Assembly: GCA_020073165.1 (NCBI GenBank)
Contig: JAIQFP010000010.1
Location: 62,001 to 126,000, forward strand
Source of the DNA: Terriglobia bacterium
GTDB taxonomy: Bacteria > Acidobacteriota > Terriglobia > Terriglobales > Acidobacteriaceae
Length of the DNA stretch: 64,000 nt
Direction of reading: 5' to 3'
In this document: one piece after another, positions 32,221-50,739 of the stretch
Layout: every line of letters starts with the position of its first letter
Position numbering within the stretch: position 1 is the first letter of the stretch
Program-made: the position numbers and the translations under genes
Notes under the pieces: model-generated
What the model was told of the DNA's origin: nothing
The model's input: the letters and a program-made list of their open reading frames with translations, nothing else
Database searches by the model: none

Positions 32221-32234
32221 GCGCTCCTGAGGTC

Positions 32235-32777: not shown

Positions 32778-32807
32778 GACTGCGCCACCTGCTTGCCCGG
32801 CCGCCAC

Positions 32808-33716: not shown

Positions 33717-33755
33717 TCAGGCTCCTCGAGACTTGTCGATTTTGCCGGAAGTCTG

Positions 33756-34823
33756 CTATGTCGAGTAGTGGTTGGCAATCCACTGCCGGTAGTTGCCGTC
33801 TGTAACTTCTTTCACCCAGTCCTCGTGGTGCAAGTACCAATCGATCGTTTTCCGAATCCCGCTCTCAAAAGTCTCGCGCGGCTTCCACCCCAGTTCGCGC
33901 TCGATCTTGCGCGCGTCCATGGCATAACGGCGGTCGTGGCCGGGACGGTCCTTCACGAAACTAATGAGTTTTCGATGCGGTACCACGGGATCGTCAGGGC
34001 AAAGTTCGTCCAGCGTCGAACAGAGCGTCTCCACGACCTCAAGATTCCGTTTCTCGTTCCAGCCACCGATGTTATACGTTTCTCCTACTCGGCCGCGCGC
34101 CAGCACGGCGCGCACCGCCTCGCAGTGATCCCCCACGAACAGCCAGTCCCGAACATTCTGGCCGTCCCCATACACGGGCAGGGGTTTACCGGCGCGCGCG
34201 TTCAGGATCATCAGTGGAATCAGCTTTTCCGGAAACTGGTACGGGCCGTAATTATTGGAGCAGTTGGTGGTCAGCGTGGGCAGGCCGTAAGTGTGATGAT
34301 AGGCGCGCACCAGGTGGTCGGAAGCTGCCTTGGAGGCCGAATACGGGCTGTTCGGAGCATACGGCGTGGATTCACAAAACGGCGGATCATTCGGGGCCAG
34401 CGATCCGTAGACTTCGTCAGTGGAGACATGGAGAAAGCGGAACGCCTGCCGATCGCTTTCCGACAATGCCGTCCAATGCGCCCGTGCCGCCTCGAGCAAA
34501 CAGAAAGTTCCGTTCACGTTGGTACGAATGAAGTCATCCGGACCGTGAATGGAGCGGTCCACGTGACTCTCTGCCGCGAAATGCACCACCGCGCGCGGCT
34601 GGTGACGCTCGAATACGCTGCGCACCAAGTCCTGGTCACACACATCGCCATGCACAAAGCAATAGCGCGGATCAGATGAAACCCGCTCCAGGTTCCGCAG
34701 ATTGCCCGCGTAGGTGAGTTTGTCGAGATTGACCACCCTGGCGGTTTCCTGCGCCATCCATTGCAGGATGAAGTTCGAGCCGATGAAGCCGGCCCCTCCG
34801 GTAACCAGGATGGTTTGTTCCAT
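33756..34823 (-). CDS. rfbB: dTDP-glucose 4,6-dehydratase
   Basis: A 355-residue extended [15 protein letters not shown] binds NAD+, [11 protein letters not shown] holds the catalytic Thr-Asp-Glu, and [13 protein letters not shown] has Tyr-x3-Lys. It makes dTDP-4-dehydro-6-deoxyglucose. The ATG at 34823 is chosen; an in-frame TTG at 34829 is possible and sits 11 nt after a GGAG. The start region lies inside a predicted inverted-repeat structure (see 34827-34873), which may regulate translation of the whole rml operon. Confidence 0.95.
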
Positions 34824-34826
34824 GGG

Positions 34827-34873
34827 CAATTGCGGTCTTGCTCCGAGTCGGGCTTACAGCCCGACCGCAATTG
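34827..34873 (-). promoter_or_regulatory. Structured leader of the rml operon (nested hairpins at the start codon)
   Basis: Two competing structures can form in the leader. One is an 11-bp perfect pairing of CAATTGCGGTC (34827-34837) with GACCGCAATTG (34863-34873), which ends only 3 nt before the rfbB ATG. The other is an inner 8-bp hairpin GTCGGGCT-tac-AGCCCGAC (34847-34865 with 3-nt loop), overlapping the first by 3 nt. The only GGAG-like ribosome site (34841-34844 on the opposite strand) sits in the loop of the long pairing. It could gate translation, or be a dispersed repeat by chance. Confidence 0.5.
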
Positions 34874-35331: not shown

Positions 35332-36495
35332 CTACCGGACGGCTGCCGCGTCTCTCTGAGGAGCCGGAGCCAGATGGTTGTCGTGGATACTGATCTCCGA
35401 CACTTCCTTCAAACGGATCGCGTTGGTTGCCCGACCTGTCCCGTTTCCGCGGAGCTCGTTGAAGGAGATCTCATTTCCACCCCCAGTCCCGGCGTCGTAT
35501 ACGAAGATTCCCGAGCCGTATGCGCCCTCCACCATGTTTTCGCGCGCGGCTGAATCTCGGACAAAGAGCAGGGCGATGCCGGCATCGAGATGCCCGCCCC
35601 GCCCGCCCTGGCGGCATTGGTTCTTCTCCACCGTGACGTTGTAAGTCAGCCGGCCGGAATCTACGCCATGCACCACGATGTTGTACTCTCTGTCGCTCTC
35701 CGCCCGGTTGCCTCGGATGATCACGTCGTGGCTGTCCTTCACGTCAATGGTGTCTTCGCCATTGCCGCCGCCAGCATTGTTCGCTATCAACCCGTGATCG
35801 GAGTGCCAGATGGTGATTGCGTCTTCCCCCGCGGGACCGAAGCGGTTGGCTTCGATTGTGAAATCGCTCACCCCTCGCACAAAGTACACGCCCCAGTGTT
35901 CCAGCCCGGTGGGATACGGCATGAATCGGTTATTGCGGATGGTGATGCTCGAGAGGCTTCCAGTGTTCACGCTGGCATACACGCCCGCCGACATGGTGCC
36001 GTGCGGCTGGGTTGGGCCGGTGGTCACATTGCAGTTCTGGAGGGTCACGTCGCGGACCTGCGCACGCCAGGAATAGAGCCGCAGGCCGTGTCGCACGTTC
36101 CGCAGGTCGAAGTCTTCGTAAACGACGTGGCTCTGCTCGTTGTTGTCGATGCCGATATCCCGCACCAGCGGCCCGGAGTCAGAGTTGCTTCCGCTGATCA
36201 CTGGCTTGGGTCCAGTTCCGTACGCACCAAAACGGATGACATTTCCCTCCGCTCCGGAAGAGCCTGGCCGCAAGGTCTCGCGCCACAGGTCTCCGCGGCG
36301 GAATAGCACGATGTCCCCAGGCCGCAAACGCGCCCGGTTTACCCGGGCGAGGGTCTGCCAGGGTGATCCCGCCAGTCCGAGGTTGGTGTCGCGGCCCCAG
36401 CTGGAACTCACGTAATAGGTCACCGCAGAAACATGCAGACACACCCCGACGAGAAGCGCCGCGATTACCAGCAGACACCTAGGCCACGCGTGCAT
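35332..36495 (-). CDS. Secreted right-handed beta-helix protein (polysaccharide lyase/epimerase-like)
   Basis: The start at ATG 36495 gives a signal peptide (LLVIAALLVGVCLHVSA) and a 387-residue product; it overlaps the upstream gene's stop by 17 bp. YYVSSSWGRDTNLGLAGSPW is the usual N-terminal cap of PL6/PL9-like and mannuronan-epimerase-like helices. Repeating rungs follow with ITIRNNRFMP, FTIEANRFGP, DVIIRGNRAE and ISIHDNHL. Such proteins cut or epimerise acidic polysaccharides in the periplasm or outside. As the last gene of the EPS operon it could trim or edit the polymer. The substrate is unknown. Confidence 0.85.
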   Translation of the reverse strand: MHAWPRCLLVIAALLVGVCLHVSAVTYYVSSSWGRDTNLGLAGSPWQTLARVNRARLRPGDIVLFRRGDLWRETLRPGSSGAEGNVIRFGAYGTGPKPVISGSNSDSGPLVRDIGIDNNEQSHVVYEDFDLRNVRHGLRLYSWRAQVRDVTLQNCNVTTGPTQPHGTMSAGVYASVNTGSLSSITIRNNRFMPYPTGLEHWGVYFVRGVSDFTIEANRFGPAGEDAITIWHSDHGLIANNAGGGNGEDTIDVKDSHDVIIRGNRAESDREYNIVVHGVDSGRLTYNVTVEKNQCRQGGRGGHLDAGIALLFVRDSAARENMVEGAYGSGIFVYDAGTGGGNEISFNELRGNGTGRATNAIRLKEVSEISIHDNHLAPAPQRDAAAVR

Positions 36496-38893
36496 GGTCA
36501 CGCTCGGCCGGGCCGGTTCCCCGGGGAGGGCGATCCGCTTCTGCCTGTCCCAGCAATCGGACGTACACGGCTTCAATCTGCTCCGCGATCCGGGGCCACA
36601 GATAGCGTTCGCGTACTCTCTCCTGGCCTTTGCGCGAGGCCTCTTCCCGCACCTCAGTATCGGCGATCAGCAGCCGCAGCATGCGCTCCAGGTCGTGTAC
36701 GTCACCACGCTTGAAGGTGAATCCCGCACCTTCCACCGCTTCGCGGTTCTCCGGGATATCACTGGCGAGCACGCAAACGCCCGCGCCCATCGCGTCCAGC
36801 AGAGCGAGCGACATGCCTTCCAGGTCGGAGGGAAGAACGAAAAGCATAGCGTTGGTCAGCAGTTCTTCGAGTGCGTTGCCAGAGATCCAGTCGAGCACTT
36901 TGATTCGGTCACCTTGGTGACGCCGAAGTTCATCGGCGTAGATGTCCGAGTAGCTCGATCCGCCCGCCATCACCAGCTTCACCGAGGTGTCAATGTGTTC
37001 GTAAGCCTGGACCAGCAGGTGGCAATTCTTCTCTGGCGAGAGCCGCCCCAAATAAAGGATGTAATTTCCCGGTTCCAGGTCCCAATCCAGAATCCGCGAA
37101 GCCGCGCGCCGTTCCCGAATCGTTGTGCCATTCGGCACATAAATGGTCTCGGCCCGGTAAGTTGTGCGGAAATGCTCCTCAAGTACTCGCGACACCACCA
37201 TGGTCGCATTCGGAAGCCGGGCCGCGGCCTGTTCCCCCAGTCGCAGCACCGTGGCGGCGATTCGTCCCCACTTCTTGCGCTGCCAGTCCAAACCCTGCAC
37301 CGTAACTACCGTCTTTTTTCCAAACAAGCGTGGGATAAATGAAAACAATGCCGGCCCCAGCGCGTGGTAGTGCACGATGTCACATCGGCTGAAGGAGGCG
37401 TGTACTGTGCTGAGACAAGTGTGGACCAGCGTTTCCAGATGTTTTGACCGGATGGTGGGCAGGCGACACACCCACATCCCGTGGTGCTCTTCCAGCGGGG
37501 GCGTGAAATAGCTGCGGCAATAGACGGTTACGTCATGCCCCATCGCTGTCAGGCGCTGCCCCACTTCCTCGTAGTAGGCTTCGATTCCACTGTACTTCGA
37601 AACCACGCCGCGCCCGCCGATAAACGCCACTTTCACTTGTAGGCTGCGCGCACCACCCGCTGGTTTGTTCTGCGCTCTCAGTTGCTCGTAGAGCGCCGTT
37701 ATCGCCACGACGTGACTCTCTGGCGAATGGCGCCGGCGTACCAGTTCGCGGCCGGCCGCACCCATTTCTGCCGCGAATCCGGGCCGCTCGGCAAGGAAGG
37801 AGATCGCTTCCGCTAGTTCCTGGACATTGCCCGGGCGGAAGAGCAATCCGGTCTTGCCCTCGTGCACCAGTTCCCGCCGCGAGCCGAGGTCCGAAGCGAT
37901 CACCGCCCGCCCCTGCGCATACGATTCGAGAATGCTCTTACCCAGAGTTTCGTATGCGTGTGACGGCAGGACAGTAAAGCGCGACGCCCCGATCCGTTGC
38001 TGGAGTTCCGTCGGCGGCACAAGCCCTAGGAAGTCCACCCGCGTCAGGCCCAACCCCAGTGCAAGTCTCTCCAGTTCGGTCCGCTGTGGCCCGTCGCCCG
38101 CGATGAGCAGGCGGATGTGAGGCACCCGGTGCATCGCCCGGAGAAGATCGGGCAGCCCCTTCTCTGCCGACAGCCGCCCAAAATAAAGGATAGGGGCATC
38201 CGCGTCCGGAGCCGGGGGTGCCTGCTCTGGCACCTCTTGAAAATGGGGGAGGACATCGATTTTCCGCCCGTCCCATCCATTCTGCATAAGCCGCACTTTC
38301 ACGAATTGGCTGGGCGCCAGGAAGCGGTCCACGCACTTCTCATAGGTGCGCAACCAGCGGTGGAAGTAGGCTTCCGCCGCCAGCACCACTGCCGAGCCGT
38401 GCGGCCCGGTGTAACAGTCTTCAGTCATTACCCTCCAGAACCGCCCGCCGCGGCAAAGCTCGCATGCCTTCCCCTTCGCCACCATGTTGTAGCTGGGGCA
38501 GAGCAGCTTGAAGTCGTTCACGTGATACAAAACGGGTACTCCCTGCGCCTTCAGTTCCCACAAGATCGAGGGTGAGAGGTGGTGATAGATGTTGCGCAAG
38601 TGGGCCACATCCGGCCGGAACTCGTCGATCATTCGGCACAAGCGTCGGCGCGCCTCGCGGGAATAAATGGCATGCGCCGCTAGGCGCGCGTGCCCCATCA
38701 GGCTGCGGCTGCCCTTGAAATCCACGTGCGGCACGAAGTGCCGGTCGTACTCTGTCGGCTTGCCGCGCGGGTCGGCCATGGAGAACAGCGCGACGTCATG
38801 TCCCCGGGAGCGCATCAACTCCATCAACTCGAACAGGTAGACCTCGGTGCCGCTGAAAGGGAAGTTGTATTTATTGCAGTAGAGGACTCTCAT
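36479..38893 (-). CDS. Two fused GT4 glycosyltransferases
   Basis: Start ATG 38893 (MRVLYCNKYNFPFSG) overlaps the upstream stop by 23 bp. The 804-residue product holds two complete GT4 enzymes. The first spans residues ~1-410 (LRNIYHHLSPSILW; Cys cluster CELCRGGRF; ILYFGRLSAEKGLPDLL; SHAYETLGKSILESYAQG). A ~12-residue linker rich in Ala/Gly/Pro follows, then the second from ~420 (VKVAFIGGRGVVSKYSGIEA; YILYLGRLSPEKNCHLL; SDLEGMSLALLDAMGAG). Each has the GT4 E-x7-E-type region. It should add two sugars in sequence to the lipid-linked repeat unit in the cytoplasm. At the junction GTGA (37633-37636) may mark an ancestral start/stop overlap. Confidence 0.9.
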   Translation of the reverse strand: MRVLYCNKYNFPFSGTEVYLFELMELMRSRGHDVALFSMADPRGKPTEYDRHFVPHVDFKGSRSLMGHARLAAHAIYSREARRRLCRMIDEFRPDVAHLRNIYHHLSPSILWELKAQGVPVLYHVNDFKLLCPSYNMVAKGKACELCRGGRFWRVMTEDCYTGPHGSAVVLAAEAYFHRWLRTYEKCVDRFLAPSQFVKVRLMQNGWDGRKIDVLPHFQEVPEQAPPAPDADAPILYFGRLSAEKGLPDLLRAMHRVPHIRLLIAGDGPQRTELERLALGLGLTRVDFLGLVPPTELQQRIGASRFTVLPSHAYETLGKSILESYAQGRAVIASDLGSRRELVHEGKTGLLFRPGNVQELAEAISFLAERPGFAAEMGAAGRELVRRRHSPESHVVAITALYEQLRAQNKPAGGARSLQVKVAFIGGRGVVSKYSGIEAYYEEVGQRLTAMGHDVTVYCRSYFTPPLEEHHGMWVCRLPTIRSKHLETLVHTCLSTVHASFSRCDIVHYHALGPALFSFIPRLFGKKTVVTVQGLDWQRKKWGRIAATVLRLGEQAAARLPNATMVVSRVLEEHFRTTYRAETIYVPNGTTIRERRAASRILDWDLEPGNYILYLGRLSPEKNCHLLVQAYEHIDTSVKLVMAGGSSYSDIYADELRRHQGDRIKVLDWISGNALEELLTNAMLFVLPSDLEGMSLALLDAMGAGVCVLASDIPENREAVEGAGFTFKRGDVHDLERMLRLLIADTEVREEASRKGQERVRERYLWPRIAEQIEAVYVRLLGQAEADRPPRGTGPAERDHARVA

Positions 38894-40118
38894 GGACGTT
38901 GCTCTCACTGGTTGCTGTAACTTGTGCGACAAAGAAGTCGCAGAATTGCGAGAGATTTCTCTCCCGGTTGAAGTGCTCCAGCACGTGCTGCCGCGCAGCC
39001 TGGCGAATCGGTTGCAAGCCCGGCCCCGATCCGTGAATCATCTCCACTCGCGCCACAAAATCGTCCATTGAATTGATCGAGTAGAGGAATCCGGTTTTGC
39101 CGTGCATCACCAGTTCCGGAATTCCCGTGATAGCCGGCGCCAGTACGGTTTTCACCAGCGCCATGGCTTCCATCAGCACCAGAGGTATGCCTTCGCTGCG
39201 ACTGGTGAGAACTACGACGTCGGCCATGGCGTAGTAGGGGTCGAGTTGCTGGCGGGGAACGTGACCGAGGAGCCTCACCTCTTTCTCCAGACCTAACTCG
39301 CTGATGAGCCGATCGAGGGATGCTCGCTCCGGTCCTTCTCCCGCAATCAGGCACAGCAGGTTCATTCCGCGGTCCCTCAGCCGGCGGCAGGCCCGCACCA
39401 GAAAGGCATGGTCCTTCACCGAGTGCAGTCGCCCGACGGCCAGCATGACGAGGCAAGATTTCTCAGGCTGGACCCTTGCAGGGAGACAGACGTGCCCGCC
39501 GGTCTCCACGCCGATGTGCTGCACCCTGATTTTTCCCGGCTCAATCTCCGGGTAACGCTTCAGGATGTGCCGCCGGTTGTACTCGGAGACGGTCAGGCAG
39601 AACGCACAGTTCTTCAGCTTGATGTCGAGATAGGCGCTATGCAGCAGCAGGTCGGAGCCATGCAGAGTCATGCTGAAGCCGATGCCCAGCACCCGCGCCG
39701 CGACCATGGCGATCCACGAGGCGAAGTACCCATGGTGCACATGGATGTGCTCGACGCCGCGACCCTCAAGCAACATCGCGTAGTACACGCCCAGACAGGT
39801 GTGCAGCAGCGCCCGTGCGCGCCGCTTTGGAGACTCATTGCCCTGCACCAGTGCGCGCTCAAAGAAACTCGCGAGCAAGGTAAATTTCCGCAAGCAGAAC
39901 CACGCCGCCCGCAGCAGCCGTGTCAGGCGCAGCGGTTGCAGGTACAAAGTTTCCGCGGCGAAGATTGCCAGTTCACCGTCGAGCACCGCACCCTCAGCGC
40001 GCCACGCGCTGCATGGGAGCACTCTGACGCCGCGACACCGGAGTTCACGGATTTCGTCCACTACGTACGGCTCGACCGGAGAAGGGAACTGGTTGGTGAG
40101 ATAGGCAACCGTGGACAT
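38871..40118 (-). CDS. GT4 glycosyltransferase
   Basis: A 415-residue GT-B enzyme. N-terminal half: YLTNQFPSPVEPYVVDEI and EHIHVHHGYFASW. C-terminal half: MLAVGRLHSVKDHAFLVRA, the nucleotide-sugar pocket and SRSEGIPLVLMEAMALVK with the conserved Glu pair. It resembles exopolysaccharide GT4 enzymes such as EpsF/PelF-like proteins. It follows the flippase-heparinase gene by 9 bp and overlaps the double GT4 gene. Donor and acceptor sugars are unknown. Confidence 0.92.
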   Translation of the reverse strand: MSTVAYLTNQFPSPVEPYVVDEIRELRCRGVRVLPCSAWRAEGAVLDGELAIFAAETLYLQPLRLTRLLRAAWFCLRKFTLLASFFERALVQGNESPKRRARALLHTCLGVYYAMLLEGRGVEHIHVHHGYFASWIAMVAARVLGIGFSMTLHGSDLLLHSAYLDIKLKNCAFCLTVSEYNRRHILKRYPEIEPGKIRVQHIGVETGGHVCLPARVQPEKSCLVMLAVGRLHSVKDHAFLVRACRRLRDRGMNLLCLIAGEGPERASLDRLISELGLEKEVRLLGHVPRQQLDPYYAMADVVVLTSRSEGIPLVLMEAMALVKTVLAPAITGIPELVMHGKTGFLYSINSMDDFVARVEMIHGSGPGLQPIRQAARQHVLEHFNRERNLSQFCDFFVAQVTATSESNVHESPLLQ

Positions 40119-40127
40119 CAGGTCACG

Positions 40128-43100
40128 TCAACACAGAGGGGAAACGAGACTTGGTTCGTGGTCGCAGATGCTGGCCATCGGCTCTTCGGCAGATGAGGCC
40201 GCGTTCTCCATTGGCGCTTCGCCGATCAACTCAAAGTGGAACTCAATCTCACGCGGCAATACCTCATCCATGGCGTATACCGCCGTGTATGCCGGCACCA
40301 CCTCGGACGAATGCTGGGCCACCCAGCCTCGCAGTGGGTCGGTCTCGCCGCGGGCCAATGTAAGATCGGGCTGATGGGAAGAAAGGGACTTCACGGTGAG
40401 TATGTCGACTTCTTCGCCATGAAGCTTCGCCACCAAAGTTCTGGCGTCCGTTTTCCGTACCTCAATACCCGGAGCGAAATGGAACGACCATTCCAGGCGA
40501 TGCTGCCCGCTGCCTATCACCTGGTCGCGAATATGCAGCGTGCCGGCTGCATCGCAGCAGATTTCTCGACGGTGGCAAACCTCTTCCTCCAACGCCCAAT
40601 GCGGTGCGGACTCGGCGGAAACCGAGGCGGCGCCATCGGTAACGGAATAACCCAGAAGCCGGGTGCGCGCTTCCCGCTGCACGTCGGCGTAAGCACACAG
40701 ATCTGATTGCTCTCGCCCATCGACGACCAGGGTGTTGTGCGCCGAAGTACCGCGGAAGTAGCGCGCCCAGCGCCCTCCAACGCTCCATGGCAGATACACT
40801 CCGGGATCGATCACCAGCGCCCGTCCGCCGGCGTACAGTTCAAAGCTCAGCGCATCGCAGTGACCGTGGTTGGCGGTGACGCAGCGGCTGAACCGGCCAA
40901 AGTCGAAGGTGAGATGAAAGCGACGCGCGGCTTCGCCGCCGCGGACGAACGCATACCCTGCAGCGGGAAAAATGCGTAGCTCGGGCGCCGGTACGCCACC
41001 GCGGTCAGATGCGGCTTCATTCGGTGGCCGTAGCCAATAATTCAGATCGGAGTAGTCCTGCCGCGTCAGTTCGAAGCGAATCTGCAAGTCTTCCAATGCC
41101 GAGTCACCCAACAGCGGCATGCTGCCGTCGTCGCGCAACAAGGCCCGTGAAAACTCCGCCAACTGCCGCACTCGCTGCTCGACTGCGGGAGTAAGAGGGG
41201 TGCGGTTGCGTCGGCAAAGCAGCGCGAGTTCGCCCAACTCACTGGCCAGGATGCGGTGATACATGGAGCACAGTTCGGAATGCACCCCGTCCGGCAAGAC
41301 CTGACTCAGCACCTCGCGCCGCAGCACCCGCCCGGCGCGCACGAGATATTTTTCCGTCTCGCGGAACTGCGGGAACAGGAGCGCATATTCGTAGAGCGCC
41401 TTGGCTTCGAGCAAGAGGTGATTGTTGGGCCAGTGATACTCGAGATTCGAATTGAGGTAGCTTCCGTGTTCGCGCAGGCCAATGCCGAACTTCTCGAGAT
41501 ACTCGTCGCTGACCGCGCCCGAATCCCTCAAAAGGAAATAAGCCCAGATCCAGTTCTGCAGCCGGGCCGCCACCTCAAACGGGCATTTCCAGGCCTCCCC
41601 GGTGCCCGCCGGATTGCGCTCAATCCAATCCGTCCACAGTTCGACCAGCTTCGTGAGATAGCGGGTATCGCGCGTGTAGTAGTAAGAGGTTGCCAGAGTC
41701 AGAAAGAACGCGTGCCGGTTGAAGTCCCACTGCCAGGAGATGTTTCCGTTTGGGCAGGCGCCCCAGTCCACCGCGTCCGGAAATCTCTGCTCCCAGCCGC
41801 GAAAGGCAAAACGGTGCTCCATGACTGCGTTTGCCCGCGTGATACTTCTGCACCGCAACTCCTCCGGGATCGAGAGGATGATTCGTGGAATATCCGCAGT
41901 GCTGAAATGAAACACTGGCCCGAGGTGGTCTTCGGCCTTGCGGCGATCGAGGGAGGAAAGTCGCCGGCGACACGCTGGGTAGCGCCACCAACGGTTGGGA
42001 ATTCCGATAACACGACGCAACCTCAGCCGGGTGCGGTAAATCCGGCTGCGCAAGCTGTATGTCGCGACCGCCAGCAGATACGGCCACCCGCGCCGCCGGG
42101 TCTTGGCGGCGAAGTTCCGGAGGTGCTGGAGTTTGCCCACGGCGGCGAACCCAATAAGGTTGCGCAGGCGCTCCTCAGCCGGCGCCTGTTGCCATTTCCA
42201 GGCTGCTGCGGCTCCGATCAGAGGCAGCCACAGCAATGCGGTCCAGCCCCGGCTCACCATCGGCGCAAAAACCAGCGCCAGAAAAATGGCGAGCCACGGC
42301 ATCAGTTTGCGATAAGAAATCGCTGCCGTACGCGCCAGGCCAGTCTGAATCATGAAATAGGCAACGCAGGCCAGCAGTTCGGCCCAGCCATAGCCGACGA
42401 TTCCGAGGCGCGGCAGCAGCAACAGTGTTCCCGCCCCCAACAGGGTCACGTGGGCCAGGTAGGAGCGCATCACCAGCCACTGCCGTCCGATCACGAACAG
42501 CGCCGAGGCCTGCAGGTTGTAGATCGAATTCACCAGCACGCCAGCGGCAACAAATGGAAACACCGCCAAACTCGGTATCCATCTCACCCCGAGCACATGG
42601 CGTACGACAAGGGGCCCGAGCAGCGCAAACCCGCAGAGCAATGGGCCCAGCGTCATGATCTGCAGAAAGAGCGCACGCTGCAGCGCGCGTCGAAACTCCT
42701 CCCGCCGGTCCTGCAAGCGTGCCAGCGCCGCAATCGCCAAGCGGCCCGCCGCCAGCCGCACCGATCCCAACGCTTCAGCGATGCGGATTGCCAATCCCAC
42801 GAACGCCACGCCCTCAGCCCCGGCGAACCGCCCTACCAGCAGCGGGTTGACCAGGGTCCGCAACTGCCAGGCGCGCATCGAGGCGGTCACTCCGATGCCA
42901 AACGACAGCATCCTTCGCGCCTCACCCAAGTCGAACCGGAGCCGGGGAAGCAGCCGCGCGGCCCAATAGGCGGCAACCAGGAGGAAGGCCTGCCAAGCTA
43001 CTTGCCCGGCAACTGGCGCCCACACGCCCATCCCCGACCAAGCTAACGCCAGCGATAGCACCAGCCCGATGGTTTGTCCTCCTAATTCAATCCCCGCTAC

Positions 43101-43658
43101 CGTGCGGAAGTTGAGCTCCCGCTCCAGCTTGGCCGTAGGCACGCCCGTCAAGCCAACGATCGGGAGATTGCAAAGCAGTACCAGGTACGGGGCCACGAAC
43201 TCGCGGCTTCCGTACCAGCGCACGAGCAAAGGGGCCAACCCTGCACCGGCCACCACCAACCCTACTGACACGGCCAAAATCAGGGTTGTCGCTACGGCAT
43301 AGATTCGCTGGTCCGGCGCAGCTTCGCTCCGCACCAGGTAGGTGTCCACTCCGGCTCGCCCCAGGCTCGCCAGGAACGCGACCAGGCTGACGGCGGTCAC
43401 GAAAAGCCCGTAGGCATGCGGGCCAATCCACCAGGTCAACACCAGCATGTTGCCCAGGCTGACCAGCACGCCCAATCCGTAGCGCACCGCAAGATAGCCG
43501 GCCCCGGTGGTGGCCAGATGGGAAAGCGATTCCCCGGCCGAAAACTCCGGTACCGAGGTTCTGCCGCTGCTGGAATCCGGGTTTACGCGCCTCGATGAAT
43601 CCGGCAACCCAACCGCCGGCGCGGTCAGCACGCCGGCCGCTTCAGCTCGCGAGGACAT
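40128..43658 (-). CDS. Wzx-type flippase fused to heparinase II/III-type lyase
   Basis: Start ATG 43658, with GGAGG 2 nt upstream (GGAGGccATG), overlapping the upstream stop by 17 bp. The 1176-residue product has two parts. Residues ~50-490 form a MOP-family oligosaccharide flippase with ~12 TM helices (LGNMLVLTWWIGPHAYGLF; GVPTAKLERELNFR; NPLLVGRFAGAEGVA). After a basic linker, residues ~580-1176 are a heparinase II/III-like lyase: an (alpha/alpha) toroid with EYHWPNNHLLLEAKALYEY and the beta-sandwich signature NHGHCDALSFELYAGGRALVIDPGVY. Both are common EPS-locus genes but normally separate. If the last TM helix leaves the C-terminus in the periplasm, the lyase would meet the polymer at the exit of the flippase. 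Confidence 0.93.
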   Translation of the reverse strand: MSSRAEAAGVLTAPAVGLPDSSRRVNPDSSSGRTSVPEFSAGESLSHLATTGAGYLAVRYGLGVLVSLGNMLVLTWWIGPHAYGLFVTAVSLVAFLASLGRAGVDTYLVRSEAAPDQRIYAVATTLILAVSVGLVVAGAGLAPLLVRWYGSREFVAPYLVLLCNLPIVGLTGVPTAKLERELNFRTVAGIELGGQTIGLVLSLALAWSGMGVWAPVAGQVAWQAFLLVAAYWAARLLPRLRFDLGEARRMLSFGIGVTASMRAWQLRTLVNPLLVGRFAGAEGVAFVGLAIRIAEALGSVRLAAGRLAIAALARLQDRREEFRRALQRALFLQIMTLGPLLCGFALLGPLVVRHVLGVRWIPSLAVFPFVAAGVLVNSIYNLQASALFVIGRQWLVMRSYLAHVTLLGAGTLLLLPRLGIVGYGWAELLACVAYFMIQTGLARTAAISYRKLMPWLAIFLALVFAPMVSRGWTALLWLPLIGAAAAWKWQQAPAEERLRNLIGFAAVGKLQHLRNFAAKTRRRGWPYLLAVATYSLRSRIYRTRLRLRRVIGIPNRWWRYPACRRRLSSLDRRKAEDHLGPVFHFSTADIPRIILSIPEELRCRSITRANAVMEHRFAFRGWEQRFPDAVDWGACPNGNISWQWDFNRHAFFLTLATSYYYTRDTRYLTKLVELWTDWIERNPAGTGEAWKCPFEVAARLQNWIWAYFLLRDSGAVSDEYLEKFGIGLREHGSYLNSNLEYHWPNNHLLLEAKALYEYALLFPQFRETEKYLVRAGRVLRREVLSQVLPDGVHSELCSMYHRILASELGELALLCRRNRTPLTPAVEQRVRQLAEFSRALLRDDGSMPLLGDSALEDLQIRFELTRQDYSDLNYWLRPPNEAASDRGGVPAPELRIFPAAGYAFVRGGEAARRFHLTFDFGRFSRCVTANHGHCDALSFELYAGGRALVIDPGVYLPWSVGGRWARYFRGTSAHNTLVVDGREQSDLCAYADVQREARTRLLGYSVTDGAASVSAESAPHWALEEEVCHRREICCDAAGTLHIRDQVIGSGQHRLEWSFHFAPGIEVRKTDARTLVAKLHGEEVDILTVKSLSSHQPDLTLARGETDPLRGWVAQHSSEVVPAYTAVYAMDEVLPREIEFHFELIGEAPMENAASSAEEPMASICDHEPSLVSPLC

Positions 43659-44973
43659 GGCCTCCAGCTTCCGCGCGTCGATTCTGTGCCGCCAGCATTC
43701 CCGCCAGCGTGAACAGCAGTCCATTCACGAACTGGTAGTTCATCACCACGAAACTGGCGTTCACCAGGTACACGATCACCAGGATCGGCCACAGCGAACG
43801 GAACGGTCCATCCAGGAAACTGCCGTTCGAGAGACCTTGCGGCGTGTACCGCCTTCGCCCGAGCCGGAAAAGACCGATCACCATCCACACATAGAGAACC
43901 CAACCGAGCAGGCCGTGCTCCACCAAGACCTCAAGATAGGTGTTGTGCATGAAGAACGCATCCTGATGAAACCCGCTGATTCGTTTCTGCAGTTCGGGCT
44001 GCATGCTGCGGGCACCCCACCCCGTAAGCGGCTTGTCGAGGAGCATCTGCCAGCCGGCTTCATACACCACCATGCGGTACTCCACTGGGGAGCGGTCTTC
44101 CAGGCGATCTCCGAGCGAACTGCTTAACCCGCCGAGACTGGCGGCAGCCAGCAATGCCACCAAGCCCGCGCTTGCCAGAGCAAGGCATGCGCGCCGCAGC
44201 CGTGGGCTCGAAGAGATCAGAAGCACGCCCAGGACGGAGCCGGCGAAGGACAGCCACACCGCCCGGGTCCTGGTGGCCAGGACGGCGAACGGCAGCGCGA
44301 TCAGGAATGCCGCCGCCGCGATTCCCCGCAGGCGTCCGCGCCGGAATGAGTTCAGCGCCAGCAAGCCGAGCACGTTTAACGTCACTCCATTGGCGACCGC
44401 CTGGAGGAAGGGTCCGCGTGCCCGGTCGGAATGGATTCCCAAAGTCTCATCCAGGATGTAGCGCGGAAAGATAAGTTCCTTCGCCCCCAACAGAAAAAAG
44501 ACGGCGGTGAGGCTCAGATAGGCCAGCACAATCAAGGCGAAGGTCTCAAACTTACGCAAGGAGGCGGCGTCTTCGAACACCAGTCCGGCCAGGTGAAATA
44601 GAGCGAACGGCACCACCCATTTAGCGGCAAACAGGCTCCAGTTCTGGGGGTCATACGGTTGCACCGCGACTCCATAGAGCGTCAACAGCAGCAGCGCCAG
44701 CATGGGCCAAGTCACCGGGTCGGTCACCCGCAAGGATTGCTGCAGCACCAGCACGCGCAGCAGCACCACGAAAACCAGCAGCCCGAACGCCACCCGGTCT
44801 AGGGAATAGAACTGCAAATCCGGGGGGCGAAACAGCATGATCGCCAGTGTCGTCAGGAAGAGCAGGGAAGGCGCCGCCAGCAGCGCGTGCAGAGGACGCA
44901 CCGCGGCCACAGCCGCCGAACACGCCAGATCAGGCGCGGAAAATCGTCCGCTCAGCTTAGCTGTGACGTCCAT
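43642..44973 (-). CDS. O-antigen ligase / Wzy-like polymerase
   Basis: A 443-residue integral membrane protein with ~12 TM helices. The O-antigen-ligase domain is recognised by ATRTRAVWLSFAGSVLGVLL and, before the large periplasmic loop, LTGWGARSMQPEL, with FFMHNTYLEVLVEHGLLGWVLY as the characteristic His-containing region. It would polymerise the lipid-linked repeat units in the periplasm or ligate them to a carrier. It overlaps the 73-aa gene by 17 bp and the flippase fusion by 17 bp. Confidence 0.9.
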   Translation of the reverse strand: MDVTAKLSGRFSAPDLACSAAVAAVRPLHALLAAPSLLFLTTLAIMLFRPPDLQFYSLDRVAFGLLVFVVLLRVLVLQQSLRVTDPVTWPMLALLLLTLYGVAVQPYDPQNWSLFAAKWVVPFALFHLAGLVFEDAASLRKFETFALIVLAYLSLTAVFFLLGAKELIFPRYILDETLGIHSDRARGPFLQAVANGVTLNVLGLLALNSFRRGRLRGIAAAAFLIALPFAVLATRTRAVWLSFAGSVLGVLLISSSPRLRRACLALASAGLVALLAAASLGGLSSSLGDRLEDRSPVEYRMVVYEAGWQMLLDKPLTGWGARSMQPELQKRISGFHQDAFFMHNTYLEVLVEHGLLGWVLYVWMVIGLFRLGRRRYTPQGLSNGSFLDGPFRSLWPILVIVYLVNASFVVMNYQFVNGLLFTLAGMLAAQNRRAEAGGHVLAS

Positions 44974-45201: not shown

Positions 45202-46830
45202 TCACGCCCCGCTTCCTTGCAACACCACGGAGACGGTGCGGTACAGAATCCGCAGATCCATCCACAGGTTCCAGTCCTCGATGTACTCCAGGTCCAGCGC
45301 CATATTGCGTTCAAACGACGGATCACGCCGCGCCGTGACCTGCCACAACCCGGTGATACCCGGAGTGACGTCCAGCCGACGCAGGTCTTCCAGGTTGTAG
45401 TGTTCGAAATCGTCCAGAGGATGCGGACGTGGCCCCACCAGGCTCATCTCGCCACGAAGCACATTCCACAGTTGCGGGATTTCATCCAGACTGTAGCGGC
45501 GCAGGAACCGTCCGACGCGCGTGATGCGCGGATCATCCGCGATTTTGAAGAACGGTCCTTCCCGCTCGTTGCTGGCGCGCAGTTGAGCTTTGAGCTTGTC
45601 GGCCTCTGTGACCATGGTGCGGAACTTGCAGCAGAGAAATCCTCGTCCCTTCCTGCCTACGCGCGGCGCCCGGTACAATACCCGCCCGGCCGAGTCCAGC
45701 TTGATGGCGAGTGCGATGGTGGCCAGCACCGGCGTCAAGGCCACCAATCCGATTGCCGATCCAACCACATCGAAGGCGCGCTTCAGAAACAGGCCGAAGG
45801 CGGGGATGGGTTCCTCGTACAGCGTGAGGACGGGGACATTGCCAAAATTCTCCAGGGTCGCGGGCCGTACCTGAAACCCGAACAGGTCAGGGACGATCTT
45901 CACATCCAGCCGATTCAAGCGGGCTTCGCGGATCACGCGCCGCGCCAGGTCGCGACGCTCCGGGATGGCCAGCAGCACCTCGTCCACAAATTCCGCCAGC
46001 GCCACCCGGGGCAGATCCTCCAGGATACCGAGTACGTCGCCGCCCACAGGTCCGTCTTCCACCAGGAATCCCCGCACCGCACGGCCTAATACGGGGTGCT
46101 GCTCCAGGTGTGCCGCCACTTCCCGGGCACGCCTCCCGGTTCCTACGATGAGCACGTTGCGCATCTTCCCGGCGGGCACCCCAGCGGCCTTTCGCCGCCA
46201 CTGTCTCCACCCCAGCATGCCCAGATAATTGAGCGGCGCGCTCGCCATCAGCGCCCCCAGCGACATTTCGTCGATTCCAAGGGAGATCGCTGTGGCGAGC
46301 AGGAGCGAGGACCAGGTCACCACCTTGGCCACAATGAATCGTTCCTCGCCGGGCAAGCGCACCAGGTCCAGCCGATAGAGCCGCTCCGAGTAACCCAGCA
46401 GCGTGAGCACTGCGCCCTGCAGCAGCAGCGGTCCCAGGCAAGCGATTGGGAAAAGAGGAGACCGCAACAACACCGACAGTTCGCGGCGAATCACGAACTC
46501 AAGCAACACCCGCAGATGGCTGGCGGCGGCGAAGCTGGCGAGCACTACCACGAAATCCGCCATCACCCGGGAGGCAAGGCGGGCGCGTTGCCCGGCCACG
46601 GAAGGCCTGGGTAGCACAGCCTCCGCTAACGTTTCCAGAGCATCCCGCCTGCTTCTCGGGTGAGGAGGTTCCGGTGCTTCTCCTGCCACCCAGAAACGCC
46701 CATCCAGACCGGCGGAGTGCGGCTTCTTGCGCGGAATACCGGCCACTGGCGGTGCGACCGGCATCACCCGGGGGGCAGGCGGGGTTCGGCGTCGGGGGCT
46801 TTCGGGTTCGATGACGGCAGGAGGGGACAC
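45202..46830 (-). CDS. Polyprenyl-phosphate hexose-1-phosphate transferase (priming enzyme)
   Basis: A 542-residue WbaP/WcaJ-type polyisoprenyl-phosphate transferase starting at GTG 46830, 1 bp after the NusG-like stop. An unusual ~85-residue Pro/Arg-rich N-terminus comes first, then four TM helices (~88-210), a CoA-binding-like Rossmann domain (NVLIVGTGRRAREVA), a re-entrant membrane helix (KRAFDVVGSAIGLVALTP) and the catalytic domain with FRTM, RRYSLDEIPQLWNVLRGEMSLVGPRP and ITGLWQVTAR. It puts the first sugar phosphate on undecaprenyl phosphate and so starts the repeat unit. The sugar cannot be told from sequence. Confidence 0.94.
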   Translation of the reverse strand: MSPPAVIEPESPRRRTPPAPRVMPVAPPVAGIPRKKPHSAGLDGRFWVAGEAPEPPHPRSRRDALETLAEAVLPRPSVAGQRARLASRVMADFVVVLASFAAASHLRVLLEFVIRRELSVLLRSPLFPIACLGPLLLQGAVLTLLGYSERLYRLDLVRLPGEERFIVAKVVTWSSLLLATAISLGIDEMSLGALMASAPLNYLGMLGWRQWRRKAAGVPAGKMRNVLIVGTGRRAREVAAHLEQHPVLGRAVRGFLVEDGPVGGDVLGILEDLPRVALAEFVDEVLLAIPERRDLARRVIREARLNRLDVKIVPDLFGFQVRPATLENFGNVPVLTLYEEPIPAFGLFLKRAFDVVGSAIGLVALTPVLATIALAIKLDSAGRVLYRAPRVGRKGRGFLCCKFRTMVTEADKLKAQLRASNEREGPFFKIADDPRITRVGRFLRRYSLDEIPQLWNVLRGEMSLVGPRPHPLDDFEHYNLEDLRRLDVTPGITGLWQVTARRDPSFERNMALDLEYIEDWNLWMDLRILYRTVSVVLQGSGA

Positions 46831-46831
46831 T

Positions 46832-47365
46832 TCAGATCAGTTCCAGTTCATAACCTTCAATCTTGATGGCTACCGAGCGCTGGATGGACTCGATGGAGAT
46901 GACGAGACTCTTCTCCTCGTTCTGTTCCAGGATTCCCTCTAGGCCGTCGAGGCAACCGCCGCGAATCCGCACCCGTCGCCCCAGCGTGAGAAATGCATGC
47001 AGCGAGCACGGGACCTTGTGTGACAGCAGTTTCTTCAGATCTTCGATTTGTTTGCCCGGAACGGCGGTGGGGTCTCCCCCAAAAGTGACGAACCGCAGGA
47101 CTCCTTCAGTGCGCAGGACGTCCAGACGCGCGGGGGAAGACAGCTCCAGGCACACAAACGCATAGCCCGGGAAGAGCGGAATCTGCAAAGTCTGGCGGCG
47201 GTCGCTCCAGCGATGGACTTCGTCCAGCAGCGGAAGGAAGGTCTGTACCTCTTTCCTGGCAAGTTGGGCGATTACTTTCCGTTCGAACCGGTAACGAGTC
47301 AGGATCGCGTACCACTGCGCCGGCTCCAGGTTCTGCGGCGCCAACAGGGCCGGGAGCGCGGTCAT
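46832..47365 (-). CDS. NusG-family antitermination paralogue (RfaH/LoaP/UpxY-like)
   Basis: A 177-residue protein. The NGN domain has WYAILTRYRFERKVIAQL at residues ~18-35 and the LFPGYAFVCL core at ~64-73; a C-terminal KOW domain shows GRRVRIRGGCLDGLEGIL. It is too divergent to be the housekeeping NusG and lies within the polysaccharide operon, as UpxY, RfaH-controlled loci and LoaP do. It should bind RNA polymerase and reduce termination in this long (>15 kb) transcript. It is the fourth gene, not the first as in UpxY systems. Confidence 0.92.
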   Translation of the reverse strand: MTALPALLAPQNLEPAQWYAILTRYRFERKVIAQLARKEVQTFLPLLDEVHRWSDRRQTLQIPLFPGYAFVCLELSSPARLDVLRTEGVLRFVTFGGDPTAVPGKQIEDLKKLLSHKVPCSLHAFLTLGRRVRIRGGCLDGLEGILEQNEEKSLVISIESIQRSVAIKIEGYELELI

Positions 47366-47473: not shown

Positions 47474-48211
47474 CTACAACCTCCGATAGATTCCCTCTGG
47501 AATCGGAAATGTTCTCTCGCTCAAGACCGTCCCCAGCAGCCGCGCATTCGCCGCCTGCAGCAAGTCCTTCGCTTTACGCGCCGCCATGCGGCGGGTAGAG
47601 TTCGCTTCCAGCACCAGAATGACGCCATCACTCAAGTGCCCCAGAAGCGCCGCCTGGCTTGAAAGCACGGCCGGCGGAGCGCAGAGCACGGTGTATTCAA
47701 AGTCGCGGCGCAATTGTGCCAATCGATCACGCAGCCACGGCACCGACAAGCCATACTTTCCTTCTCCGGTCGAAGCCGACAGCGGCGCTTGCCACAACTT
47801 CTCACTAATCTGGCGGGAGGACTCCCGCAACGAGCCACGTCTTAGCTGACCACAGACTGGGTCGCTGGTGCTCCTCCCAAAACTGTTTTCCAACCCCCGG
47901 GTTCGCAGGCTTGCCTCCACTACGCAAATGTTTCCCGTAATCTGCTGGGCCAGGGCCTGCGTCACCTGCATGCAGAGTCCCGTAATATCGGTTTCCTGAT
48001 CCACCGCGCTGATCACTACCTGGCGCGCGGGCCGGGGCCACCCCGGACAAAAGACTTGCCGCACCAGGTGGCGGATCTGCTCCTCCGCGAACTGGTCACA
48101 ATTCCAAAACGCACGAGTCCGCGGGATGAACGAGGTCTTGGACTCGTCCGCTGTTGTCTCGAGGATGCCGGGCTGCGCGGTTATGTGCAGCACTTCCGCG
48201 GTTGAACTCAT
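47474..48211 (-). CDS. BY-kinase-like (CpsD/CapB fold) protein lacking a P-loop
   Basis: Start ATG 48211, overlapping the upstream stop (ATGA). The 245-residue product has the SIMIBI/BY-kinase layout, including YTVLCAPPAVLS (Walker B-like region with Asp missing), SDGVILVLEANSTRR and ARLLGTVLSERTFPIPEGIY. The expected Walker A motif (GEGKST type) is replaced by SAVDQETDITGLCMQ, and the C-terminal tyrosine cluster is reduced to one Tyr. It probably cannot hydrolyse ATP or autophosphorylate. As the gene next to the Wzc/GumC-like protein, it may act as a non-catalytic partner controlling polymer length. Confidence 0.85.
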   Translation of the reverse strand: MSSTAEVLHITAQPGILETTADESKTSFIPRTRAFWNCDQFAEEQIRHLVRQVFCPGWPRPARQVVISAVDQETDITGLCMQVTQALAQQITGNICVVEASLRTRGLENSFGRSTSDPVCGQLRRGSLRESSRQISEKLWQAPLSASTGEGKYGLSVPWLRDRLAQLRRDFEYTVLCAPPAVLSSQAALLGHLSDGVILVLEANSTRRMAARKAKDLLQAANARLLGTVLSERTFPIPEGIYRRL

Positions 48212-49695
48212 GCGCTCCTCCGTGGCAGCGACGCCAGCACCGGAGCGCCCAGGTACACCACGACCTCCTCGGGCGTACGAAACGCCGGGTCCAAATAGTC
48301 GGCCGCGAACGCCAGGCTGGTACTCACGGTCCCGGCCAACGCCAAGCCCACCAGGCCGTAGGTCCAGGCCGAGCGCACCGGCAACACCGGCAGCGTGGGT
48401 TGTTCGGCAATCGTCACGTTCAGGATGCCGCGTTCGTCCAGGGCGTCCCCGATCCGCGCCTCCTCGCGTTTGTTGGCATAGAGGAGGTACTTTTCTTCGG
48501 CTGCTTTCACATTGCGCAGCAGGTCCTGCTGCGTGATCGCGTGATTCCCCAACTTGTCGGCCGCGGCGCGGTTCTTGGCCAAGAGCAAGCTGCCGGCCAT
48601 CGCCCGCGATTCCAGGGCGCTCAACTCCACCTGCGCCTTGATCAATTCCCCCTTGGCCCATTGGTGGGTGGGTTCGTGCTCGATGGTCTGTTCCTGCAGT
48701 GGCCTCAGATCTTCATTGGCGATGGCCGCTTCCGTTTCCGAGATCTGTTCGTCCACCTCGCGCACCAGCCGGTAGGTAGGCTCGAACTTGGTCAGCAGTT
48801 CGGTGCGCTTCAGCTTCAACTCCAGCAACCGGGACTTCATTTTCTCCAGGAGTTGCGGGTTGTCGGAAGTGCGCACCTGCGTCGTGATCTTCTCTGGAAG
48901 CGAGGGCAGCTTTGATTCCAGCGCTTGAGCCCGCTGCTTGGTTTCGGCGATGGCCAGCCGTACCTGCTGGTCGTTGGCCTCAGCGTCGCTCAGCTTTTGC
49001 AGGGCGAGGTCCCGCTGCAAGGGCGCAGAAACCACCCCTTCTGCGCTGGTGAAATCCATCAGCTGAAGTTCCGCGGTCTCCAGTCCCCGGCGCGCCTCCG
49101 TCATTTGCTGCTCAAAAAAGTCTGATTCCCCCGATGGCCGGCGCAATTGCAGATGCCTCTCCAGGTACGCGTTGGCCAGGCAACGGAGCACCTTGACAGG
49201 CTGGGCCGGATCGGAAGACGCATAGGTCACCGCGATCAACCGCGTCTTCCGCACCGGCTCCACTTGCAGGCGTTGGCCAAGCTGCCGCACCGCCCGCGCC
49301 AGCCTCACCGCTTTGTTCTCGCGCCGCCATCGCGACCAGAAGCCCCCTTGCTCCGCCAACCCCGAACTCTGCGCCACGCTGCCCAGTATTTCTTCGTCAC
49401 GCAGCAGTTCTACCTCAGAGTTCAACTCTTCCTCGGTTACCTCCTGGCGTTCGAACTGCGGCGACTGGGTTGGCGCCGGCGAAACTGCCGGGTCCACACG
49501 GCCCTTCTGCACCAGCACTTTCATTTGTGATTGGTAGGAGGGCGCAATCAGCCCATACAGAAGAGCCGCGAGAAAAATCCCGACGAAGGAAATCAAGACC
49601 AACCGCCGTTGCCGGAATAACACCGCCAGAAGATCTCGCAGGGTGAAGGGGTTCACCGAGACTGACCTTCGAATCAGGCTAAGTTCTTCCGGCAT
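48208..49695 (-). CDS. Wzc/GumC-like chain-length determinant
   Basis: A 495-residue polysaccharide co-polymerase. The N-terminal Wzz domain has TM1 LVLISFVGIFLAALLYGLI (about residues 32-50). A long periplasmic coiled-coil region follows (KKTRLIAVTYAS is nearby; ETKQRAQALESKLPSLPEKI). TM2 is WTYGLVGLALAGTVSTSLAFA near the C-terminus. It lacks the fused kinase domain, which is supplied by the next gene. It controls polymer length and links inner-membrane polymerisation to the Wza-type channel. Confidence 0.93.
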   Translation of the reverse strand: MPEELSLIRRSVSVNPFTLRDLLAVLFRQRRLVLISFVGIFLAALLYGLIAPSYQSQMKVLVQKGRVDPAVSPAPTQSPQFERQEVTEEELNSEVELLRDEEILGSVAQSSGLAEQGGFWSRWRRENKAVRLARAVRQLGQRLQVEPVRKTRLIAVTYASSDPAQPVKVLRCLANAYLERHLQLRRPSGESDFFEQQMTEARRGLETAELQLMDFTSAEGVVSAPLQRDLALQKLSDAEANDQQVRLAIAETKQRAQALESKLPSLPEKITTQVRTSDNPQLLEKMKSRLLELKLKRTELLTKFEPTYRLVREVDEQISETEAAIANEDLRPLQEQTIEHEPTHQWAKGELIKAQVELSALESRAMAGSLLLAKNRAAADKLGNHAITQQDLLRNVKAAEEKYLLYANKREEARIGDALDERGILNVTIAEQPTLPVLPVRSAWTYGLVGLALAGTVSTSLAFAADYLDPAFRTPEEVVVYLGAPVLASLPRRSA

Positions 49696-49842: not shown

Positions 49843-50739
49843 TCAAAACTGGGAGGGGTTCCAGTACATGCTGAGGTTGGGACTGGGCAGATACCGCCGA
49901 ATCTTCGAGATCGTATTCTGCGGCACATACACCAGGTCGCCAGGCCTGAGGTGGATGTCTTCTGCCACATTCCGTGAGTTCAGCATTCGTTTCAGGTTGA
50001 GTACATGGGTCTCGACCAGTTCGTTCGTCACTCGCCGGAATACCACGACCTGCGAGTGTTTGGCCTGGCCGTTTAGGCCCCCTGCAATCGCCACCGCTTC
50101 CGTCACTGTCGTGTCACCGCGAAGTTCGTACTTGCCGGGGCGCGTCACCTCACCGCCGGCAATGAAGTACGGCTTGTCAAAGTCCTTCAGGACGACCGTG
50201 ATCTCCGGGTCGTGCAACGTAGCCGCGTAGGCGGCAGCGATCGTTGCCCGCACCTCGGCCAGTGTCGCCCCCTCGGCGTACAGCTCGTCCAATCCCTTGA
50301 GCGCAATGAAGCCGTCGGGTTGCACGGTGACGGTCTGATTGAACTCGGGGGCGAAGGTAAAGCTGACCTCCAGCACATCACTCTTGCGCAACCGGTAAAG
50401 CGGACGGCGCTCCCCCGTCAAGGCTGGACTCCATGCGCCGTCCGCTGTTCCGGGCTTTGTGGCTGCCGTTGACCCAGCGTTCCCTATGGCTACCCTTGGC
50501 CGTTCTTCCTGGGCCACAGCTTCCACCGTACGACTCTCGCACAACCGGTAAAGCGGGCGGCGTTCCCCCGTCAGGGCTGGACTCCATGCGCCGTCCGCTA
50601 CTCCGGGTTTCGGGGTTGCTGTTGACCCAGCGTTCCCTATGGCTACCCTTGGCCGTTCTTCCTGGGCTACAGCCTCCACCAAAGCCTGCACCACACAACA
50701 GGCAAGAGCCAGAACCGTAAATGTCAGAGCCCTTCTCAT
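49843..50739 (-). CDS. Wza-like polysaccharide export protein with duplicated N-terminal segment
   Basis: A 298-residue outer-membrane-associated export protein. A signal peptide (TFTVLALACCVVQALVEAVA) precedes a ~51-residue segment present twice in tandem. The Poly_export domain follows (LYRLRKSDVLEVSFTFAPEF; VQPDGFIALKGLDELYAEG) and an SLBB domain (YFIAGGEVTRPGKYEL...GLNGQAKHSQVVVFRR). It ends with the PGDLVYVPQN-type motif. It should form the exit channel with the Wzc-like protein. No clear lipobox is seen. First gene of the EPS operon. Confidence 0.93.
   Translation of the reverse strand: MRRALTFTVLALACCVVQALVEAVAQEERPRVAIGNAGSTATPKPGVADGAWSPALTGERRPLYRLCESRTVEAVAQEERPRVAIGNAGSTAATKPGTADGAWSPALTGERRPLYRLRKSDVLEVSFTFAPEFNQTVTVQPDGFIALKGLDELYAEGATLAEVRATIAAAYAATLHDPEITVVLKDFDKPYFIAGGEVTRPGKYELRGDTTVTEAVAIAGGLNGQAKHSQVVVFRRVTNELVETHVLNLKRMLNSRNVAEDIHLRPGDLVYVPQNTISKIRRYLPSPNLSMYWNPSQF
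50390..50682. repeat. 153-bp tandem duplication inside the Wza-like gene
   Basis: The block starting AACCGGTAAAGCG at 50390 recurs at 50543, a period of exactly 153 bp (51 codons, in frame). The second copy ends about 50682. The copies differ at only a handful of positions, so the duplication looks recent. Confidence 0.9.

Follow-up and report, generated by a model that had tools for sequence, protein, structure and literature searches.

The locus described here raises the question of whether a Wzx-type flippase and a heparinase II/III-type polysaccharide lyase can be one and the same protein, and if so, on which side of the membrane the lyase-like part would lie and what it could do there. 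The gene concerned was found in a 64,000-nucleotide stretch of the soil acidobacterium Terriglobia bacterium (Acidobacteriota; assembly GCA_020073165.1, contig JAIQFP010000010.1, positions 62,001 to 126,000), hereafter called the window, within an exopolysaccharide (EPS) locus. An original prediction, made from the letters of the window, had read it as a single 1176-residue protein and had put the lyase at the mouth of the flippase. The parts of the fused gene are as follows.

40128..43658 (-), whole fused gene, 1176 residues; ATG at 43658, no stop in the translated frame
42186..43520 (-), Wzx/MOP-type flippase domain, residues 47-491 (Pfam, AlphaFold model of the flippase only, charge count)
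41859..42185 (-), basic linker, residues 492-600 (no transmembrane helix by hydropathy)
41088..41837 (-), Hepar_II_III_N domain, residues 608-857 (Pfam 5.6e-37), containing N746 and Y800
40377..40985 (-), Hepar_II_III_C domain, residues 892-1094 (Pfam 1.6e-35), containing H931
41421..41423 (-), N746 codon; the residue aligns with catalytic N240 of PL12 heparinase III
41259..41261 (-), Y800 codon; the residue aligns with catalytic Y294 of PL12
40866..40868 (-), H931 codon; the residue aligns with H424 of PL12

The flippase-heparinase-like fusion is real and conserved in its genus

The open frame and the Pfam matches of both halves (Polysacc_synt_3, Hepar_II_III_N and Hepar_II_III_C) bore out the single 1176-residue protein, with the flippase part, predicted at residues ~50-490, placed at residues 47-491, and with the heparinase signature NHGHCDALSFELYAGG, predicted in the last 300 residues, located at residues 930-945; an alternative in-frame ATG further upstream, at 43724, would give 1198 residues. 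The Polysacc_synt_3 match covered residues 77-363 (1.5e-40), the Polysacc_synt domain of the flippase half passed its curated cut-off of 23 with 139.7 bits, and PF16889 and PF07940 both exceeded their cut-offs in the expected order (128.3 and 123.2 bits). The lyase half matched the sequences of the PL12 structures 4fnv and 4mmh (3e-27 and 1.3e-18), and the catalytic N, Y and H positions were conserved in the lyase domains of the window and of two relatives, G001 and G006. The PL12 numbers N240 and H424 are presumptive, being assigned via a 24-residue offset; Y294 is named as a PL12 residue in an excerpt of PMC11848413. Since the scores against the NCBIfam HepC equivalogs were far from their cut-offs (108 of 600 and 84 of 700 bits), the domain was regarded as heparinase III-like, not HepC. 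Within its own genome, the fused protein matched only itself (E <= 0.001).

The same architecture was retrieved from G001, the only other sampled genome of the genus, as an equally open fusion with 78% identity over residues 1-1167 and no stop, and the fusion is thus present in two of two sampled genomes of the genus, the window genome (G000) included. Over linker residues 496-600 the two sequences were 61% identical with no gap or indel in 105 codons, and the ratio of nonsynonymous to synonymous substitution rates (dN/dS), calculated from this one pair without a significance test, was 0.32 for the linker, 0.31 for transmembrane helices (TM) 13-14, 0.10 for the flippase core and 0.16 for the lyase. 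Because one further G001 frame is also open over residues 460-640 in this GC-rich DNA, the openness of the frame is by itself weak evidence. A start scan over residues 480-640, however, found in neither genome a start codon preceded by a ribosome-binding site at the proper distance: the GTG at residue 507 of the window is not conserved in G001, and a GGAGGAG run of the window, absent from G001, abuts the TTG of residue 601 with zero spacing. An internal start yielding a free lyase was rejected on this ground. An assembly or sequencing error that deleted a stop between two genes, such as the indel near 42,100 that the original prediction had envisaged, would agree with the separate genes of G006; nevertheless, the presence of this open fusion in another genome as well, the ungapped linker alignment and the lack of an internal start in both genomes render it barely conceivable, and it was therefore rejected.

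Further flippase-lyase fusions were sought in overlapping family, class and phylum samples. In the family sample, which gave a lyase match at 1e-25 in 32 of its 300 genomes, the fusion was confined to G000 and G001, the long lyase open reading frame (ORF) of G201 being an upstream extension. The class sample comprised 399 genomes, 105 of them with PF16889 at 1e-8, and all 14 other ORFs of at least 886 residues were examined: L106, L107, L108, L115, L117, L118 and L119 owed their length to a mechanical upstream start (marker BLAST and reading), L110 and L116 were of normal length once read, and five were other fusions, four with AsnB and one with GT4 plus a transferase. For the phylum, 396 genomes were sampled, of which 81 had a match at 1e-20; here, 20 + 2 regions covering all 16 other ORFs of at least 900 residues yielded one flippase-GT4 fusion and no further flippase-lyase fusion, the long lyase ORFs being upstream extensions by reading. 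No such fusion was thus detected outside the genus in the 300, 399 and 396 genomes by a marker BLAST that may miss very divergent flippases. A scan of named genomes, reaching close relatives only, encountered the fusion in one of six loci, that of G001, and a scan of viral contigs gave no lyase relative. Among the best matches in the open-access literature, a Wzx-lyase fusion was not described, nor did any of them explain the signal-less heparinase-like proteins of EPS loci. The component domains are already known; the architecture and the cytosolic uronate step that it implies are new to us.

The origin of the fusion was approached by comparing 12 genomes or records that share this EPS locus. 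Whereas lyase and flippase are fused in G000 and G001, they are adjacent but separate in G006, a member of the same family, where the flippase TAA lies 20 nucleotides before the lyase ATG with AAGGAG upstream, in accordance with the earlier statement that these genes are usually separate neighbours in EPS loci. G100 (L045) contains both halves, and a run of N at the junction hides their fused or separate state. In G093 (L022:5914-8805), a 963-residue flippase is fused to a GH39/PslG-like hydrolase, a form known from this one genome, and an extra helix with a signal-peptide-like end, which looks like a retained signal peptide, precedes the hydrolase. The PslG-like hydrolase alone occupies the wzx slot in G011 (L247:8489-9970) and G080 (L248:8110-9699), where it carries a signal peptide by reading and no flippase match was found within the fetched 17-18 kb. 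In G101, G108, G073, G023 and SbA1 the flippase stands alone with GT4 immediately after it, the G073 flippase, which is broken across frames, being counted as flippase-only. A 12-row profile of the hydrolase domain matched, among PDB entries, the beta-xylosidase 2bs9, which we take to be GH39 (2.5e-9), PslG (1.3e-8) and a named GH39 xylosidase (7.5e-6). Four of the 12 members matched Pfam GH39 and six GH42 at 0.01, a threshold at which the G093 domain alone had no Pfam match, and the glutamates E156 and E294 were invariant.

In a tree of Wzy, GT4 and GT4-GT4 from 11 loci, G093 was placed beside G000/G001 (support 95/99), and thus either a single fusion, whose enzyme was exchanged later, or two separate fusions took place in one small clade; the flippase tree does not decide this placement. 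It could be argued that the fusion is neutral, adjacent co-transcribed genes having lost a stop and the tether giving only equal dosage. The separate adjacent genes of G006, the presence of another fusion in the locus (GT4-GT4, in 10 of the 12 loci), the restriction to one genus and the only moderate constraint on the linker are all compatible with such an origin. The fusion has, however, been retained across two species at 78% identity, with a linker dN/dS of 0.32 and no indel, and a different carbohydrate enzyme was fused at the same place in G093, so that we consider neutrality unlikely, although still a serious competitor.

The side of the membrane on which the heparinase-like domain lies

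PDB sequence searches with the flippase, as a single sequence or as a profile, gave no match. The AlphaFold model of the flippase alone (predicted local distance difference test, pLDDT, 69.5; predicted template modelling score, pTM, 0.67) was superimposable on WzxE (VIA Z 32.7, root-mean-square deviation 3.0, 392 residues aligned, model residues 5-400 of 455) and on MurJ (Z 28, reaching model residue 426). As modelled, the flippase is a MOP fold, closest to WzxE and MurJ, with 14 TM helices, N-in, and a cytosolic C-terminus; the mapped Wzx of P. aeruginosa, with 12 helices according to an excerpt of PMC3412221, also has an even number. The 14 helices were set by hand, with TM13 assigned to residues 452-469 and TM14, which is weak, to residues 473-491. 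The loops on the N-terminal side contained 22 K/R in 120 residues versus 6 in 52 on the opposite side, and the lean toward N-in had the same direction in all eight rows counted, the window included.

Beyond TM14 there is no further helix before the lyase domain, and the linker is strongly basic (26 K/R versus 8 D/E across the 114 residues 492-605). No signal peptide was detected on the window lyase domain, which follows the flippase and this linker, and the free G006 lyase starts with the charged N-terminus MMDRLLTFAEKTRQRG, likewise without a signal peptide by our own rule and by reading. In addition, other Polysacc_synt_3 flippases carry a glycosyltransferase at their C-terminus, a GT4 in G956 (L256:3285-6011) and a GT2 in the second flippase of G001 (L029:2960-5644); glycosyltransferases of that type use cytosolic nucleotide sugars. 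A TM14-like stretch was seen in five of five aligned enzyme-bearing forms and in none of the four flippase-only forms. A cytosolic location of the heparinase-like domain is thus supported by several indirect lines, and the extra helix before the G093 hydrolase is to be expected if the flippase ends in the cytosol. The mouth position proposed originally, taken as the outer (periplasmic) mouth, was not upheld, given the 14-helix N-in reading, the basic helix-free linker, the signal-less G006 homologue and the C-terminal glycosyltransferases. As for the topology of the last helix, TM14 could be assigned and the C-terminus read as cytosolic, the helix itself being weakly modelled.

Some observations weigh against this placement. 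The pLDDT of TM14 is 38-55, and the helix lies outside the fold match to WzxE/MurJ, which comprises the first 12-13 helices; the full-length AlphaFold model (7 rows) attained a pLDDT of only 42 and was not used; and the K/R content per residue differs modestly (0.18 versus 0.12 in the window, 0.11 versus 0.08 in G023), with helix borders set by hand. If the helix number were odd, the domain would be a periplasmic depolymerase that trims or clears polymer near Wzy, like AlgL in alginate synthesis. Besides the weak modelling of TM14, this alternative draws on the four aligned flippase-only relatives that stop after TM13, on G093, whose GH39/PslG-like hydrolase in the same slot has a helix that would bring it to the periplasm, on the grouping of the window lyase lineage with signal-peptide rows in the lyase tree, and on the inner-membrane association of PslG that Psl synthesis requires according to an excerpt of PMC6813494. 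It is opposed by the basic linker with its 26 K/R and no extra helix, by the free G006 homologue without a signal peptide, by the two other flippases that bear a C-terminal GT4 or GT2, and by the TM14-like stretch that enzyme-bearing forms possess and flippase-only forms lack, and we regard it as improbable.

A possible uronate-active step at the flippase entrance

The reading that we favor, and to which we assign about an even chance, is that wzx was fused with a neighboring PL12-like gene, giving a MOP-fold flippase with a linker-tethered cytosolic uronate-active domain that would process the lipid-linked repeat unit and thereby couple processing to flipping. A cytosolic domain could have access to nucleotide sugars, to lipid-linked repeat units and to fragments; because it is tethered to the flippase, the repeat unit would be its natural substrate, and it would encounter the uronic acid of the undecaprenyl-pyrophosphate-linked unit arriving there. 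The uronic acid might be epimerized at C5 before flipping, via the chemistry common to lyases and epimerases, or else faulty units might be broken in a proofreading lysis with release of the lipid carrier. Lyase and epimerase chemistry are indistinguishable from sequence, and the fold class does not separate them; trimming or quality control by the lyase domain, as originally proposed, is possible. Excerpts of PMC8006597 and PMC11848413 state that PL12, PL33 and others have their fold and catalytic residues in common with DS-epi1, and that small changes may convert a lyase to an epimerase; E. coli does not survive the trapping of lipid carrier at the cytosolic face (excerpt of PMC11813082). 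We put forward more tentatively, as a possibility, that the tethered enzyme edits or epimerizes the repeat unit right at the Wzx entrance and that the flippase C-terminus is an exchangeable dock, with the heparinase-like domain inside and the PslG-like one outside. To our knowledge, no Wzx/Wzy pathway is known with such a uronate editing or epimerizing step at that place.

Several points count against the proposed uronate-active role. The substrate and the reaction are inferred from sequence, and a cytosolic enzyme cutting the product of its own pathway would be costly unless tightly specific. Twelve other rows of the lyase alignment have T at the N746 position and N one place before, and hence the catalytic Asn is not a family-wide feature. 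No UDP-sugar dehydrogenase, the uronic-acid gene, was found in the locus or the window, the four genes of this type above the cut-off all lying elsewhere in the genome. Finally, the window lyase lineage falls outside the main signal-less EPS clade. Since catalytic activity is predicted from sequence, the heparinase-like domain might also be a non-catalytic carbohydrate-binding or scaffold part; the N, Y and H positions kept in the window, G001 and G006, together with the lyase dN/dS of 0.16, make this very improbable.

The wider distribution of heparinase-like proteins was surveyed with 79 lyase ORFs, almost all of them belonging to the class. They came from 74 hand-chosen, non-random regions among the matches of the class sample (14 chosen by ORF length, 60 others) and from 6 loci that were either of the window's kind or of the fused kind; of 81 rows, L116, which coincides in position with L176, and the broken L045 had been dropped. 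Signal peptides were called by our own rule, not a trained predictor, and the automatic flags were overruled for the window row and L021 (both inside the flippase), L107 (upstream nonsense) and L164 (inside the domain). An EPS-type gene adjoined or was fused to the lyase in 55 of the 68 rows without a signal peptide versus none of the 11 with one, a split whose Fisher value of 2.8e-7 is overstated because the rows are related and not independent. Nine of the 68 signal-less rows are fusions themselves, and AsnB was the only neighboring marker in 14 of the 55. As the window lyase belongs to a set of 12 rows that includes 8 signal-peptide rows and L168 (SH-like approximate likelihood ratio test, SH-aLRT, 99; long branches), the class-wide pattern serves for the window as an analogy, not as a clade argument.

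Fusions to other partners were also observed. A heparinase-like domain is joined to GT4 in G015 and G239, and to GT4 and a phosphoglycosyltransferase within one 1339-residue protein in G087 (L109:3774-7793). An AsnB-type amidotransferase is fused to a heparinase-like domain in L111, L112, L113 and L114 (G332, G531, G545 and G583), as recognized by BLAST with a marker taken from one of the four and by Pfam in two of them, and AsnB and heparinase-like genes are neighbors elsewhere in the phylum (e.g., L197-L202). On the flippase side, ten of the regions L030-L040 (family f2 of the same order) encode a GT2-like glycosyltransferase, assigned by reading, on the flippase N-terminus (~910-1050 residues); L040, the eleventh, is truncated where its contig stops.

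The flippase half is encoded in a Wzx/Wzy locus that also provides Wzy, an initiating transferase, an export protein and a Wzz protein, in the order export protein, Wzz-domain protein, gene without a Pfam match, NusG-domain gene, phosphoglycosyltransferase, Wzy, fused gene, GT4, GT4-GT4, beta-helix protein and rmlB-A-C-D. The assignments below were made by Pfam; for the rml genes the families fit, and the names were given by reading.

49843..50739 (-), Poly_export/SLBB export protein (Wza type)
48208..49695 (-), Wzz-domain chain-length protein
46832..47365 (-), NusG-domain gene, adjoining the initiating transferase on its upstream side and perhaps encoding an antiterminator specific to the locus
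45202..46830 (-), polyprenyl glycosylphosphotransferase (Bac_transf), starting repeat-unit synthesis
43642..44973 (-), Wzy_C polymerase/ligase gene, with a 17-nucleotide overlap with the fused gene start
38871..40118 (-), GT4 glycosyltransferase, next gene downstream of the fused gene after a 9-nucleotide gap
36479..38932 (-), GT4-GT4 double glycosyltransferase
35332..36576 (-), right-handed beta-helix protein
31384..34829 (-), dTDP-rhamnose genes rmlD, rmlC, rmlA and rmlB

The two orthologous loci that do not add to the ten with a retained GT4-GT4 fusion are cut by contig ends. The beta-helix protein is common to the three readable lyase-bearing loci (G000, G001 and G006) and was not found by BLAST in the stretches fetched downstream of GT4-GT4 from G093, G101, G108, G073, G023 and G011; at its place in G080 there is 1.8 kb without an assigned gene.

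Comparison with known systems

Signal-less heparinase-like proteins occur in many polysaccharide-synthesis loci of the phylum, and their covalent partners (flippase, glycosyltransferases, phosphoglycosyltransferase and amidotransferase) suggest that they act at the inner face, where the repeat unit, still growing or already finished, would be their target. That a PslG-like hydrolase was fused in parallel suggests an inherent benefit of keeping a processing enzyme at the flippase. These predictions point to a processing step in the making of slime polymer, i.e., exopolysaccharide, and a vague annotation thereby becomes an experimentally addressable question.

The window protein shares the fold and the wzy-wzx-GT-rml locus with Wzx/MOP flippases such as WzxE and MurJ (Polysacc_synt_3), but differs from them in ~680 extra C-terminal residues bearing an enzyme-type domain. 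That domain resembles PL12 heparinase III/HepC (4fnv, 4mmh) in its sequence match and its catalytic N, Y and H positions, whereas it misses the HepC cut-offs, has no signal peptide and is tethered to a flippase. DS-epi1, the dermatan sulfate epimerase, has the two-domain fold class and the catalytic residues of PL12/PL33 (excerpts of PMC8006597 and PMC11848413); it is a eukaryotic Golgi enzyme, and its likeness to the window domain comes through these papers, not from a direct comparison.

Among enzymes of EPS loci, PslG (5bx9), the hydrolase of the Psl operon, is likewise a carbohydrate enzyme at the inner membrane (excerpts of PMC6813494 and PMC9075953), and in G093 the orthologous flippase is joined to a domain whose family profile matches PslG (1.3e-8); PslG itself, however, is a free protein, with domain and chemistry unrelated to the window lyase. 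AlgL and other EPS-operon depolymerases also represent polysaccharide lyases in a synthesis locus (for the AlgL role, an excerpt of PMC9075953), but AlgL is periplasmic and free, whereas the window domain is tethered and more likely cytosolic. In comparison with the signal-less heparinase II/III-like EPS proteins, the window protein has the same Pfam domains, the same EPS context and the same tendency to repeated fusion with biosynthetic enzymes (GT4, phosphoglycosyltransferase and AsnB), and is distinguished from them by a flippase partner found only in its genus and by a heparinase-like domain on a separate branch of the tree.

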